Origin: Pirellulales bacterium
Lineage (GTDB): Bacteria; Planctomycetota; Planctomycetia; Pirellulales; Thermoguttaceae
Length of the DNA: 64,000 bases
NCBI GenBank assembly: GCA_016931995.1
Contig: JAFGDS010000025.1
Location: forward strand, 1-64,000
Reading direction: 5' to 3'
In this document: positions 5,983 to 64,000 of the stretch, one piece after another
Position numbering within the stretch: the stretch's first letter is position 1
Layout: each line of letters starts with the position of its first letter
Position numbers and translations under genes: made by a program
The notes under the pieces: model-generated
Database searches by the model: none
Told to the model about the DNA's origin: nothing
The model's input: the letters and a program-made list of their open reading frames with translations, nothing else

Positions 5983-6046
5983 GTCATTCTGAGCGAAGCG
6001 AAGAATCTCGTCCGTCGGCCAGATCCTTCGCTTCGCTCAGGATGAC
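5983..6046. repeat. Family C inverted repeat pair
   Basis: Left arm 5983-6010 and right arm 6021-6046 are near-complementary copies of a unit containing CTTCGCTTCGCTCAGGATGA, separated by about 10 bp. Together they would form a long hairpin downstream of dcd. This unit is widely seen in GC-rich bacterial genomes, where its translation gives peptides such as HPERSEGS. Other copies are near 18.2, 18.5, 25.95, 47.6, 55.8 and 63.2 kb. Confidence 0.9.
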
Positions 6047-7368: not shown

Positions 7369-7470
7369 GGTCGGAGGTCGGAACTCGGAAGTCGGAAGAT
7401 TGTGACGCAAACTGACTGTTATCCCCGAGTCCCTAATCCCTGATCCCCAATCCCTTTATCCCCAACCCCT
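7369..7470. repeat. Low-complexity heptamer-like repeats (families E and D)
   Basis: 7369-7399 is a degenerate run of GGTCGGA units, and 7421-7470 a run of ATCCCCA/GTCCCTA-like units. The same two types, in the opposite order and much longer for D, occur at 52562-52917. They fill the space before the symporter start, where no clear ribosome binding site is visible. Confidence 0.75.
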
Positions 7471-11369: not shown

Positions 11370-12810
11370 CGGCTGGGAGCTGATTATCGACGTTGCCGTC
11401 GTGGCGATGCTCATCGTGGGCGTCGGGCTGTTCCGCACGCCGGACCGGGCCCGCTGGGGAAATCTCACCGCCGTGGCCGCCCTGGCCTGCGCCCTGGCCG
11501 CCGTGTTGTATCGCTATCCCGTCCTCAGCCCCGGCTGGGTCCTCGCGGCGTTCGCCCTGGGTTCGTTGGCCGGCTGGGGCGTGGCCATGCGGGCCGACAT
11601 GCTCCAAATCCCCACGATGATCGCCTTCCAACACGGCGCCGGCGGCCTGGCCGCGTGTCTTGTGTCCTACGTCGAGCTGACCCGGCACGCGACGGCGCTT
11701 ACCGCCGTCGCCGTCGGGGCCGGCATCATCGCGCTGATCCTCGGCGCCGCCACGTTCAGCGCCAGCATGGTCGCCAGCGGGAAGCTCGCCCGGCTGCTCC
11801 GCCAAACGCCCACCGTCCTCCCCCAGCACGACGGCGTCCTGGCCGGCGTGAGCCTCTCGGCCGTTGCCTGCGGATTGATCGCCGGAATCCTGGGCGGATC
11901 GGCCGCCCACGGCGCCCTGCTCGGCGCGATGGTTCTCTCAATCCTGGTGGGCGTCGTCTTCGCCGTCCGCGTCGGCGGCGCCGACATGCCGGTGCTCATT
12001 TCCTTTCTCAACGCGGCCTCGGGCCTGTGCGCGGCCCTGTGCGGCATCATCATCCAGGACCGCCTGCTGATCGCCTGCGGCGCCACCGTCGCCGCCTCCG
12101 GTTCCATTCTCACGCACGCCATGTGCAAGGCCATGAACCGCGGACTGCGCAACGTGTTCCTCGGGGCCTCCGGCGCGCCGGCCGCCGCGGCGACCATACA
12201 TGCAAAGACAGGTCCCCCGCCGGAAGACGCCCCGGCCGATGCCCCGCCCACGCTCGAAGCGCCCGCGGCCGAAAAACCGCCCGTGGATGGATTTCCCCGG
12301 GCGATCCAGGTCGCCCGCGAGGCGCAATCCGTCATTATCATACCCGGCTACGGCATGGCGCTGGCCCACGCGCAGGGCGAAACGGTCCAATTCGCCAACC
12401 GGCTCGCGCGGTTGGGCAAAAAGGTGCGTTTCGTGGTCCACCCGATCGCCGGCCGCATGCCCGGCCACATGCACGTCTTGCTGGCCGAGGCCGAGGTCGA
12501 CTCCGACACGCTCTTCGAGATGGACGAGATCAACCCGGAGTTCAAGGAAACCGACCTTGCCGTGGTCATCGGCGCGTGCGACGTGGTGAATCCGGCCGCC
12601 GCGCTGGTCGAAAACACGCCCATCTCCGGAATGCCCATCCTCCTGGCCGAACAGGCCAAACACGTGATCGTCTGCAATCTGGACGATCGGCCCGGATACT
12701 CGGGCGTGGACAACCCGCTGTACACCAACCCCAACACGATTCTCTTGCTCGGCGACGCGAAGGCCAGCGTCCAACGTCTACTCGAAGCCTTGAATGGAGA
12801 GACAACGTAG
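11362..12810 (+). CDS. pntB: NAD(P) transhydrogenase beta subunit
   Basis: A 482-residue subunit with membrane domain II (about residues 1-265, eight to nine helices) and the NADP(H)-binding domain III at the C-terminus. Domain III motifs are intact: VIIIPGYGMALAHAQ, HPIAGRMPGHM, VIGACDVVNPAA and GYSGVDNPLY. Residues about 270-310 are a proline/alanine-rich linker. With pntAA and pntAB it completes a functional-looking transhydrogenase that would supply NADPH. Confidence 0.93.
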   Translation: MTNGWELIIDVAVVAMLIVGVGLFRTPDRARWGNLTAVAALACALAAVLYRYPVLSPGWVLAAFALGSLAGWGVAMRADMLQIPTMIAFQHGAGGLAACLVSYVELTRHATALTAVAVGAGIIALILGAATFSASMVASGKLARLLRQTPTVLPQHDGVLAGVSLSAVACGLIAGILGGSAAHGALLGAMVLSILVGVVFAVRVGGADMPVLISFLNAASGLCAALCGIIIQDRLLIACGATVAASGSILTHAMCKAMNRGLRNVFLGASGAPAAAATIHAKTGPPPEDAPADAPPTLEAPAAEKPPVDGFPRAIQVAREAQSVIIIPGYGMALAHAQGETVQFANRLARLGKKVRFVVHPIAGRMPGHMHVLLAEAEVDSDTLFEMDEINPEFKETDLAVVIGACDVVNPAAALVENTPISGMPILLAEQAKHVIVCNLDDRPGYSGVDNPLYTNPNTILLLGDAKASVQRLLEALNGETT

Positions 12811-25692: not shown

Positions 25693-26043
25693 CGCCACGG
25701 GCTCCGCCAGTGCCGCTGGGTGCCAGTGCCGCAACGCACGCACGGGCGGATCGAAGCGGCACACGCTGGCCCTCGGTTGCCGGCCACGACGGCCCGCCGG
25801 GGCGCGGCGGCACACAACCTATTCTTCGTCGCTCCAAGTCTACGGCTTGAGCCGGCTTTGCGGGTTCGAGCGATTAAGTAGACTGGGTAGTCTGAATCGA
25901 TAGCGACAGTCCAACGGCCTCGGTTTCGCCGTCGTGCTGAGCGAAGCGGGACATCTCAAGTTCTTCTGTCAAAAAGAGATCCTTCGCTTCGCTCAGGATG
26001 ACGAACGCTGCGCTCGGGATGACGAACGCTGTGATCAGGATGA
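25693..26043. repeat. Repeat-filled gap (families A and C)
   Basis: The region between the divergent mlaE and FG-GAP genes contains one degenerate family A copy (25693-25730), then a family C copy (25931-25957) and a complex inverted family C array (25976-26043) in which the CAGGATGACGAACGCTG segment recurs. No gene is supported here. The two promoters expected for the divergent genes are not recognisable. Confidence 0.8.
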
Positions 26044-47537: not shown

Positions 47538-47778
47538 AACCGCAAATAAATCGCGGATGAACGCAGATACGAGTCTTTTTTGTCAATACGAGTCATTCCG
47601 AGCAATTCCAGTCATTCTGAGCGCAGCGAAGAATCTCGTAGCGCATTACCCGCAAGACGACTTCATACGAGATCCTTCGCTTCGCTCAGGATGACAGGAG
47701 ACTCACCGTTTGGCTGTCCTTTCCCCAATGCCCGTTTCCTCGACAATCATCTGCGTTTATCCGCGTTCATCCGCGGTT
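47538..47778. repeat. Families G and C between hydB and hydA
   Basis: The 314-bp space inside the hyd locus holds a family G inverted pair (47538-47568 and 47749-47778; core ATCTGCGTTTATCCGCGTTC) enclosing a family C inverted pair (47591-47640 and 47669-47695). Thus one palindrome pair is nested inside another. No gene. Confidence 0.88.
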
Positions 47779-52561: not shown

Positions 52562-52917
52562 GATCTCAAATCTCAAATCCCCAGCCCCCAGCCCCCAATC
52601 CCCAGTCCCAATCCCCAATCCCCAATCCCCAATCCCCGATCCCCGCGCCCCGATCCCCGCGCCCCGATCCCCGATCCCCGATCCCCGATCCCCGATCCCC
52701 GAGCCCCGAGTCCCGAGTCCCGAGTCCCGAGTCCCCGCGCCGCGGCGCTCCCCAATGTCCCGTCGCGCCACCCTGCCGCGCAAGCCGACCTCGGCGCCCG
52801 GCGAAGCCGCAAGCGGCGCCCTTCCGCTTCCCGCTCTCCGCTTCCCGCCCTTCCGCTTTCCGCTTTCCGTTTTCCGACCTCCCACCTCCGACCTCCGACC
52901 TCCGACCTCCGACTTCC
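52562..52917. repeat. Long low-complexity repeats (families D and E)
   Basis: 52562-52737 is an array of about two dozen heptamer-like units (ATCCCCA, ATCCCCG, GTCCCGA variants), with changes spreading in blocks, as expected of local unit expansion. 52821-52917 is a run of TTCCGCT and CCTCCGA units. Shorter relatives are at 7369-7470. Not a CRISPR: there are no spacers. Strand slippage is likely. The parts of 52386-53058 outside the repeats hold nothing recognisable except the promoter below. Confidence 0.85.
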
Positions 52918-55806: not shown

Positions 55807-55982
55807 GTCATCCTGAGCGTAGCGAAGGATCTCGTCGGCCGTCGCGGCGTGCCACCTGCTTCGCCAGTGCCCGTTTTCTCGCCAACCCCCGGCCATTGTG
55901 CGGCCAAAGGAGAAGCCGGCATCTGGAAATCGCCCTAAGTCGTTTTCTCCCAAGGAGATCCGTCGCTGCGATCAGGATGACT
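55807..55982. repeat. Families C and A between Zn-ribbon and phoH
   Basis: A family C copy at 55807-55835, a diverged family A copy at 55849-55871, and a worn family C copy at 55953-55982. The rest of the 379-bp gap (55759-56137) shows a TATAGT at 56070, a possible -10 box for phoH, and no gene. Confidence 0.78.
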
Positions 55983-61622: not shown

Positions 61623-62511
61623 CGCCGGATACCGATTCCTCGAACCGTCTGCCCTCGCCCGGGTCAAAAACCTCGCGATGGTCGCCCGCGGCGTCGTCGA
61701 GGGCTTCATCTCCGGCCTGCACGCCAGCCCTTACAAGGGCTTCAGCGTCGAGTTCGCCGAGCACCGCGAATACGCCGCCGGCGACGATCCGCGCCACCTC
61801 GACTACCGCATGTTGGCCCGCACCGACCGCCTCTACGTCAAACAATACGAGGAAGAAACCAACATGCGCGTCCAGATCCTCCTGGACACCAGCGGCTCGA
61901 TGGGCTACCGCCACGCAAGCCAAATCACGAAGCTCGAATACGGATCCTACCTGGCGGCGATTCTGGCGTATCTGATGACGCGACAACAGGACCTGGTCGG
62001 CCTGACCACCTTCGACGTCGAGATCGGCCTGGACCTGGCCGCCGGAAGCTCGCCGCGCCATCTGGGCGAAATGATGCGCCGGCTGGAGCGGCTCGCGCCC
62101 GGCCGCGCGACCAACGTCGCCGGCACCCTGCACCGCCTGGCCAACCGCTTCAAACGCCGCTGCCTCGTCGTCCTCATCAGCGACCTGTACGACGAGCCCG
62201 ACGACGTCCTCCGCGCGTTGCACCACTTCCGCCACCGCCGCCACGAGGTAATCCTCTTCCACGTCCTCGACAAGGCCGAGCTCGACTTCCCCTTCCGCGA
62301 GGTCGCCGCCTTCCGCGACCTCGAAACCGGCGAGCGAATCCAGGTCGATCCCGCCTTCGTCCGCAAGACCTACCTCGCGGAAATCGAGGCGTTCGTCGAC
62401 GTATATCGCCGCGCGTGCGCCGAGGCGGGCATCGACTACGTGATGACCGATACCAGCGTCCCCTACGACTTCATGCTCTCCCGCTACCTCGCCAAACGCA
62501 ACCGGCCATGA
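61612..62511 (+). CDS. DUF58 (VWA-like) protein
   Basis: A 299-residue cytoplasmic protein with the DUF58 core: FSVEFAEHREYAAGDDPRHLDYRMLAR, which I cite as two parts (FSVEFAEHREYAAGDD and RHLDYRMLAR), and a VWA-type DTSGSMG metal-site motif. DUF58 genes usually follow a moxR AAA-ATPase gene and precede bat genes. No moxR is seen in the window, but the BatA-like gene follows by an ATGA overlap. Exact function unknown; a role in envelope stress is typical of the group. Confidence 0.9.
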   Translation: MSPDAGYRFLEPSALARVKNLAMVARGVVEGFISGLHASPYKGFSVEFAEHREYAAGDDPRHLDYRMLARTDRLYVKQYEEETNMRVQILLDTSGSMGYRHASQITKLEYGSYLAAILAYLMTRQQDLVGLTTFDVEIGLDLAAGSSPRHLGEMMRRLERLAPGRATNVAGTLHRLANRFKRRCLVVLISDLYDEPDDVLRALHHFRHRRHEVILFHVLDKAELDFPFREVAAFRDLETGERIQVDPAFVRKTYLAEIEAFVDVYRRACAEAGIDYVMTDTSVPYDFMLSRYLAKRNRP

Positions 62512-64000
62512 CGTTTCTGGCTCCGCTCTTCCTGATCGGCGCGCTGGCCGGGATCATCCCCGTGCTCTTGCACCTGATGAACCGGCGGAAAGCCAAGGAG
62601 CTGCCCTTCGCCACGCTGCGATTCCTCCGCCGCGGCGTCGAAAAAACACGCCGACGCCGACGCGTCCAGGATTTGCTGCTGATGCTCCTCCGCGTCGCCG
62701 TGCTCGTGCTCATCGCCCTGGGCCTGGCGCGGCCGACCATCACCCGCCTCGGCGCGCTCTGGGGCCAATCCGGCTCCGCCGTCGCCATCGTCCTGGACAA
62801 CTCGGCCAGCATGGGCACAGTGGACCGCGACGTCGTCCGATTTGAAACCGCCCGCCGCGCCGCCGCCCAAGTCCTCGATCAGCTCGCCGACGGCGACCAG
62901 GTCGCCCTGCTCCTGACCGGCGGACCGCCCTTTCCCGAACAAGGCCGGCTCGACCGCGCCCACCAGCGCGTCCGCCAGACGCTGGCCGCCTGCCGCGCCA
63001 GCTACCAGCGAGCCGACCTGGCAACCGCGCTGGCGCACGCCCACAAGATCCTCGTCGAATGCGACGCGACGGATAAGCAGATCTACCTCATCAGCGACCT
63101 GCAAGCCGTGTCGTGGGAGACGGGCGTCGAGGGGCCAGGGGCGAGGGACCGGGGACGGGGGACGAGCGGCGGGATTCTTCGCTCCGCTCAGAATGACCGC
63201 GAGGTCGTTCAGAATAACGGGGACCAGGCGAATGAGACCGTAGACGACGAGGCCACTGCAATTCCGGTGATCGTCGTGGATTGCTACCGGACGCCCAAAC
63301 CCAACGCCGCCGTCCAGAGCGTGAAGCTCGATGCCCCGGCGCCCGTGCGGAACGTCCCCCTTCGGGCGACCGTCGAGCTTTTCGGCGCGGCCGCCACGCC
63401 GCAGCAGAGGCACGTCGATCTCTTTCTGGACGGCGCGAAAACCGCCACTAGCCCGGCCCTGGACGTTCCTCCCGGCGGCCGAGCCGCGCACGATTTCACG
63501 TTCTCGTTTCGTGAGAGCGGCCTGCATCAAGGCGAAGCCCGCCTGGTGGGCGAGGACGGCTCCGCCCTGGACGACCGCCGCTTCTTCGCCGTCTCCATCG
63601 ACCGCGGAATACCCGTCGCCCTGGTCAAGCCGCGCCAACACGAAATCGCCTATCTCGACGACGCGTTCTACCTCGAACGCGCGTTGGCCCCCGGCGCCTC
63701 CGGCGGCGGCGCGATCCGCCCCACCGTCCTCCTGGCCGACGACCTCGCCCGCGAACCGCTCGCGCCCTATCGCATCGTCTTCTGCGTGAATCTCCCAGCC
63801 TTGGACGCCGAAGCCGCGGCCAAACTGGCCGACTTCGTCGCCGGTGGAGGCAATCTCGTCTGGCTCTGCGGCGACAACGTCGACCCCGCGGCCTACAACC
63901 AAATGAACGACGCGGCCGGCGGGCGACTCCTGCCAGCTCCGCTCGTGGATCTTCGCGCGCCCGCGACGGACGCCGGTCGCGACAGTTGGCGCGTGGCCAA
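62508..64000 (+). CDS. BatA-like VWA membrane protein (3' end cut off)
   Basis: At least 497 residues, open to the window edge. The N-terminus is the BatA type (MTFLAPLFLIGALAGIIPVL, LHLMNRRKAKELPFATLRFL) with two membrane helices (about 5-25 and 57-77). A VWA domain follows with DNSASM and ISDLQAV. Between residues 208 and 244 lies a Gly/Arg-rich insertion that translates a family C repeat (SGGILRSAQNDREVVQNN); the frame is not broken. Conservation of the flanks suggests that the insertion is a loop. Coupled to DUF58 by ATGA. Confidence 0.88.
   Translation, partial: MTFLAPLFLIGALAGIIPVLLHLMNRRKAKELPFATLRFLRRGVEKTRRRRRVQDLLLMLLRVAVLVLIALGLARPTITRLGALWGQSGSAVAIVLDNSASMGTVDRDVVRFETARRAAAQVLDQLADGDQVALLLTGGPPFPEQGRLDRAHQRVRQTLAACRASYQRADLATALAHAHKILVECDATDKQIYLISDLQAVSWETGVEGPGARDRGRGTSGGILRSAQNDREVVQNNGDQANETVDDEATAIPVIVVDCYRTPKPNAAVQSVKLDAPAPVRNVPLRATVELFGAAATPQQRHVDLFLDGAKTATSPALDVPPGGRAAHDFTFSFRESGLHQGEARLVGEDGSALDDRRFFAVSIDRGIPVALVKPRQHEIAYLDDAFYLERALAPGASGGGAIRPTVLLADDLAREPLAPYRIVFCVNLPALDAEAAAKLADFVAGGGNLVWLCGDNVDPAAYNQMNDAAGGRLLPAPLVDLRAPATDAGRDSWRVA

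Follow-up and report, generated by a model that had tools for sequence, protein, structure and literature searches.

The BatA/VWA gene at the end of the 64,000-nucleotide stretch of planctomycete DNA analysed here (the window) carries, in frame, a short block of repeat DNA, and we put at roughly 80% the probability that dispersed repeat DNA entered this gene after the split from its nearest sampled relatives and survived there in a disordered linker. The insert (63130–63219) consists, in order, of a G-rich heptamer tract, a unit of the dispersed repeat family F1 and a half-unit tail, all in frame. The features concerned are:

62508..64000, + strand: BatA/VWA gene (758 aa; stop codon at contig position 64782–64784, outside the window)
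63120..63260, + strand: linker, residues 205–251 (47 aa), from the VWA domain to the next strand, its length differing among homologues
63130..63164, + strand: G-rich heptamer tract, about five units of GGGRCNN (regular expression)
63173..63197, + strand: F1 unit, 0 mismatches to the degenerate consensus GATYCTTCGCTNCGCTCAGRATGAC over all 25 positions, translated ILRSAQND
63198..63219, + strand: half-unit tail of F1, of a kind that also stands behind 18 other sampled F1 copies

The heptamer units of the tract are imperfect, and TRF, with its threshold lowered to 30, reports a weak array (63115–63164, period 7, unit GGGGGAC, 68% matches, score 35). The string GGATTCTTCGCTCCGCTCAG sits at 63172–63191 (+) and is one of seven matches in the window at up to three mismatches, shuffled sequence giving an expectation of 0.02. 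An earlier, sequence-only reading had assigned residues 208–244 to a tract followed by a dispersed repeat; this composition is borne out, but the repeat-derived residues run from about 208 to 238 with the tail (63198–63219) included. The same reading called the element palindromic, a term that suits the F1 family, chiefly its inverted pairs, better than the copy in the insert, as the unit and tail taken as a single strand (51 nt) fold no better than shuffles (z −0.15).

The protein has a BatA domain at residues 1–76, an N-terminal part that forms a membrane segment, and a VWA_2 domain at residues 92–197 (both Pfam), and a beta-rich region lies past the VWA domain. In an AlphaFold2 model built on a 16-row alignment, and modest overall (mean 73.0, pTM 0.39), residues 205–249 of the linker have pLDDT below 50, as do residues 1–4, 28–48, 75–86 and 491–497. 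The reading frame from the start at 62508 is open on either side of the insert and passes through it without a stop, as had been claimed; with the frame intact, we set aside the ideas that the insert is spliced out or bypassed in translation. By a home-made hexamer coding model trained on the organism's own genome, the in-frame score per codon is 0.65 over residues 1–204, 0.07 over 208–237 and 0.55 over 252–497, and scores as low as that of residues 208–237 are found in 2.6% of 10,463 thirty-codon windows from called genes. At its C-terminus (TTETRRPRR) the same protein overlaps a copy of another repeat, F5 (CACCACGGAGACACGGAG), at about 64754–64771 of the contig (G000:C52; L001:3747–3764), just past the window end.

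F1 is abundant in the 5.43-Mb genome to which the window belongs (G000), with 329 forward and 329 reverse matches (658) at up to three mismatches and 0 for the reversed control, and it is matched in 10 of the 30 genomes searched. Its units were placed relative to genes in a sample of 780,549 bases (41 pieces including the window, partly picked around hits) that holds 118 units and, by a home-made caller, 587 genes (86% coding). In agreement with the earlier claim that the repeat elsewhere lies between genes, 96 of the 118 units are intergenic; 8 are at gene edges and 14 are within called ORFs, and among these 14 only the unit at 63173–63197 has a coding score of at least 10 on each side. Random 25-mers fell within genes in 4017 of 5000 cases. 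The near absence of other F1 copies from genes counts against the insertion reading. The broader claim that such elements move or copy into coding DNA finds partial support: a second family, F7, sits inside genes of a related genome (G039), but F1 seldom does so (1/118 sampled). An inverted partner lies within 80 bp of 83 of the 118 units, and a half-unit tail within 60 bp of 19 (the insert's own counted). Folded, F1 forms 5 + 2 pairs with a 3-base loop and an internal loop, and the fold of a single unit is no better than that of shuffles; stem pair 4/20 is C-G in 77 units, G-C in 22, T-A in 15 and non-Watson–Crick in 4 (two of them T-G). Elsewhere in the window, and outside the finding itself, lie:

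5983..6046, no strand assigned: F1 inverted pair (single-stranded DNA fold −24.6 kcal/mol, z −7.67)
47611..47695, no strand assigned: F1 inverted pair
25978..26002, + strand: F1 unit with tail, overlapped by a short called ORF
55807..55831, − strand: F1 unit with tail

Long intergenic heptamer arrays were also seen in the window, at 52575–52735 and 7428–7469 (minus strand). Six families gave 402 hits in the G000 sample, and the candidates among them for a second mid-gene repeat were rejected: at L088:10525 the protein overlapping a match to F2 (GTGCCACTGGCNNNGCCAGTG), which we take to be GlgX-type, was read as native sequence, L083:6940 and L111:6518 appear to be over-extended at the N-terminus, and L099:9683 and L108 look like C-terminal read-through. 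Two proteins that by eye are PEP-CTERM-like (L108:10436–10606 and 12589–12636) terminate in translated F2 repeats, and a repeat containing GTTTCAATCCACGCCCTCGTGAAGAGGGCGAC, with 33 occurrences in the sampled G000 stretches, resembles a CRISPR array.

All 99 genomes searched, including the organism's own, give some match to the BatA/VWA protein; a contig scan with this protein alone found no relative, and one with alignment A1 found relatives. Neither P0001 nor the G058 methylase had a match in the PDB. We aligned 44 proteins, of which 29 (this one counted) are orthologue-like and 15 come from named records; L158 is partial and was dropped, and G058, in which the frame is broken, was treated separately. 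The named-record homologues are from planctomycete bins (38–64% identity), many labelled Pirellulales, Pirellulaceae, Thermoguttaceae or Thermogutta and others only Planctomycetaceae, Isosphaeraceae or Planctomycetota. Across the 44 proteins the linker varies from 9 to 99 aa, so that length alone proves little, and it is 47 aa here, 25 in the sister L011 and 24 in the next nearest, L024. The expectation of a gap of about 35 residues exactly at the insert was thus not borne out, the net gain over these two nearest homologues being 22–23 aa, and with linkers so variable an exact empty site is not definable for this gene. The same residues with normal codon variation, which would have marked them as native, were sought in the other 43 aligned homologues, none of them from the same genus, and were absent from all 43. 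This absence and the low coding score within the insert, high on both sides, argue for an insertion, as do the low pLDDT of the linker, the concentration of repeat hits in the linkers of the aligned loci and the F7 inserts of G039, both described below.

Of the 44 proteins, 7 (this gene counted) have recognisable repeats in their linkers, and G058 makes it 8 of 45; these repeats belong mostly to families other than F1. F7 (CCTCTCCCNNNGGGAGAGG) lies in the linkers of G030, G039 and G002, AACCCGAAGCGTCAGCGAGG occurs three times in that of G015, heptamers in that of G033, and heptamers together with GGGCACTTCAGTGCCC in those of G004 and G058; no repeat was recognised in the linkers of the 15 added named-record proteins. 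A short stretch of the G040 linker that is common to G004 and G058 was left out of this count, as was an F9 match in a gene of G002 (L232:10225) which, with two mismatches, looks like chance. The families are dispersed in their genomes to different degrees. F7 has 42 sites in G030, 308 in G039 and 133 in G002, and 17 of the 30 genomes searched contain it; the G015 repeat has 145 occurrences in G015 and is found in 11 of 30; TGGGCACTTCAGTGCCCA has 21 matches in G004 and 18 in G058 (both strands) and 0 in three other genomes searched. The heptamer family is poorly defined by its pattern, because the counts (G000 71, G004 64, G058 111, G033 34) stand beside high counts for the reversed control (39, 42, 46 and 29, respectively).

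Over the 44 loci, the linkers (4,155 bp) contain 17 repeat hits, a count that is biased upwards because several families were first recognised in linkers and that includes two heptamer matches overlapping F7 arms; the remaining gene sequence (93,327 bp) contains 2, both at the 3' end, and the sequence outside genes (87,600 bp) contains 7. When the presence of a repeat in the linker was mapped as a label on a tree made with the linker left out, 6 changes were needed, at least 5 of them forced by well-supported branches. Shuffled labels needed 6.6 changes on average, and 154 of 500 shuffles were as low as observed; the repeats are therefore scattered on the tree and do not form one inherited block. 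This scatter, the presence of several families in the linkers and the near absence of hits from the rest of the 44 genes are what one might expect if the linker were a preferred or selected site, to which repeats are targeted or in which length and charge are under selection, beyond mere tolerance. We regard this as unlikely, since the predicted disorder is enough to account for tolerance, some of the families were first recognised in these very linkers, and F7 is found in nine other sampled genes of G039 and so is not confined to the linker.

The G039 sample comprises 737,973 bases in 40 stretches (L195–L214 and L235–L254, not chosen at random) with 569 called genes, and it contains 38 F7 sites. 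Twenty of these are in genes with coding scores of at least 10 on both sides, 15 are intergenic, one is in a gene with one weak side and two are at edges; F1, with 30 sites in the same sample, has none inside genes. The 20 mid-gene sites fall in 10 genes, the BatA/VWA gene among them. In LysA there are 39 residues against 4 in the solved structure 1knw_A, and in AceE 44 against 7 in 1l8a_A; in GatB the aligned blocks join at 116–120 of 3h0l_B while the query continues from 123 to 151. MutS, identified by family models only, is also among the hosts. Linear extrapolation gives a rough figure of about 70 F7 host genes in G039. Smaller samples of other genomes also contain mid-gene F7 sites with strong flanks (G058 3/5, G040 4/11, G002 4/5), all four of those in G002 being in the BatA/VWA gene, and in G000 there is one such site in 13 (L098:1425, in a secretin_N-domain protein) with two more near a gene start. 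By eye, eight asymmetric in-gene F7 pairs have one orientation relative to the gene, with the GGGG arm first and a CCCTAACCC-like arm second, and two further pairs are symmetric (in-gene pairs at L197, L198, L212, L239, L240, L253 and L254). The G039 LysA gene (L212:6201–7634, −) has a second insert-like stretch with facing G-rich and C-rich heptamer tracts. F7 in G039 is the phenomenon of the Rickettsia palindromic elements outside the Rickettsiales, and the likeness to these elements drawn in the sequence-only reading is apt because F7 interrupts LysA, GatB and AceE in a related genome.

The heptamers raise the question of slippage, by which the tract might make the gene phase-variable. In G058 (L028) and G004 the distance from a conserved TGGAAY to the palindrome is 42 nt (6 heptamers) and 35 nt (5), respectively, and that from the palindrome to a conserved GCCGCTAAACAACAA is 112 and 55, each 1 modulo 3; since the downstream lengths are equal modulo 3, the difference of 7 nt alone splits the frames of G058. 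This one-heptamer change may reflect phase variation, mutation or an assembly error. Phase variation of the gene nevertheless seems to us improbable, as this is a single case in a metagenome bin, which could stem from gene decay or from an error in sequencing or assembly, and as the heptamer units in the window are imperfect and thus less prone to slippage.

Slippage in place also enters into the suggestion that the linker, as native coding sequence of low complexity, looks like a repeat only through such slippage or by chance. Homologous linkers are indeed variable and often of low complexity, and the heptamer tract, whose pattern has a high control count, could have arisen in this way, but the suggestion is very hard to reconcile with the F1 unit, which fits its consensus at 25 of 25 positions and whose window matches far exceed expectation, with the tail common to 18 other sampled copies, or with a coding score among the lowest 2.6% of windows. 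Misassembly at a repeat, a thought prompted by the presence of F1 within about 60 bases of the first base of contigs C32, C41, C44 and C50, is barely credible given that the flanks encode consecutive parts of one protein that can be aligned end to end with homologues, that the frame is kept and that other genomes have inserts in the same linker.

We therefore return to the entry of dispersed repeat DNA. Its origin from such a repeat is indicated by the identity and copy number of F1 and by the unit-plus-tail build shared with other copies. The heptamer tract, F1 unit and tail would have arrived in the gene after the lineage split from its nearest sampled relatives, probably as a copy from elsewhere, made through template switching or by some transposase that acts on hairpins. 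The gene would have survived because the linker is disordered, because the frame used is free of stops (4 of the 6 frames of F1 are open) and because the net change in length kept the frame. The product would then carry about 30 extra unstructured residues, presumably translated into the mature protein and most likely neutral. No transposase gene was linked to either F1 or F7: F1 did not lie nearer than about 1.1 kb to any of the seven Y1_Tnp loci of G000, and F1 and F7 were absent from the 12 Y1_Tnp loci examined among the 13 of G039. For F1 this tells against the insertion reading, as do the poor folding of the insert's own copy and the high reversed-control count of the heptamer pattern. 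F2 lies near four of the seven G000 loci (L068, L070, L072 and L073); in L068 and L073 it stands on either side of Y1_Tnp, an arrangement that resembles a REP/RAYT system.

It is chiefly in the obligate intracellular Rickettsiales that in-frame palindromic repeats in genes are known, and weak selection readily explains them there. This bacterial family, too, appears to have protein-coding palindromes resembling those of Rickettsia. The larger proposition, that this Pirellulales family has coding palindromes at a Rickettsia-like or larger scale (about 70 G039 genes, including central enzymes), together with unrelated families repeatedly entering one linker and phase variation by heptamer slippage, is doubtful as a whole. 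In-gene palindromes in planctomycete genomes of about 5 Mb provide many natural insertions for testing how protein arises from repeat DNA and whether this changes enzymes, and one linker entered separately by different families lets tolerance be weighed against targeting in a natural experiment. Within open-access full texts we found no paper with the element or peptide strings, and nothing in print on coding palindromes in Pirellulales, on F7, on these hosts or on the shared linker; for intragenic repeats in Planctomycetes, none of the papers listed besides PMC3733652 looked relevant by title and abstract. Intragenic REPs and RPEs are themselves already known, and published cases include loci shared by distinct RPE groups and a recB site with different REPs.

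Among known systems, the GTAG REPs with RAYT transposases are short dispersed palindromes that are intragenic in several species (PMC3733652); unlike them, neither F1 nor F7 lies close to a Y1_Tnp gene at any locus examined. The enterobacterial RU-1 to RU-3 are intergenic mobile MITE-like units of 103–168 bp that keep open frames inside genes (PMC2759123); the insert shares the open frame within a gene and differs from such units in size and host. The G-rich heptameric repeats GGGNATC of Xanthomonas and Nostoc have a period of 7 and are dispersed and mostly non-coding (PMC4692102); the tract here is alike in period and G-richness, whereas its unit is GGGRCNN and it lies within a gene. The CGTC-tagged REPs (PMC3733652) have 8–9-bp stems and 4–5-base loops, leave CGTC or one of its variants TGTC and CCTC unpaired at one end, occur predominantly as inverted dimers, include intragenic members (different REPs lie at about the same recB site in two Xanthomonas) and have no dedicated transposase. 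F1 resembles them in that inverted dimers predominate (83/118) and none of the seven Y1_Tnp genes of G000 is flanked, but its stem is of 5 + 2 pairs with a loop of 3. F1 has AT beside a GTC end, and CGTC is present in 65 of 112 sampled units, the base after TGAC being G in 65, T in 17, C in 16 and A in 14 (6 units at stretch ends excluded). The RPEs of Rickettsia and Wolbachia are palindromic repeats of 100–150 bp in frame within genes; RPE-4, RPE-6 and RPE-7 are rich in ATGAC, and different RPE groups occupy the same orthologue loci (PMC10969869 and PMC3767692, the last two points from PMC3767692). The insert differs from these in size (F1 25 bp and tail 22 bp, about 90 bp with the heptamer tract), in its planctomycete host and in the rarity of F1 inside genes; it shares with them the short motif ATGAC, at the end of the F1 unit, and above all insertion in frame within an ORF without destroying that frame.
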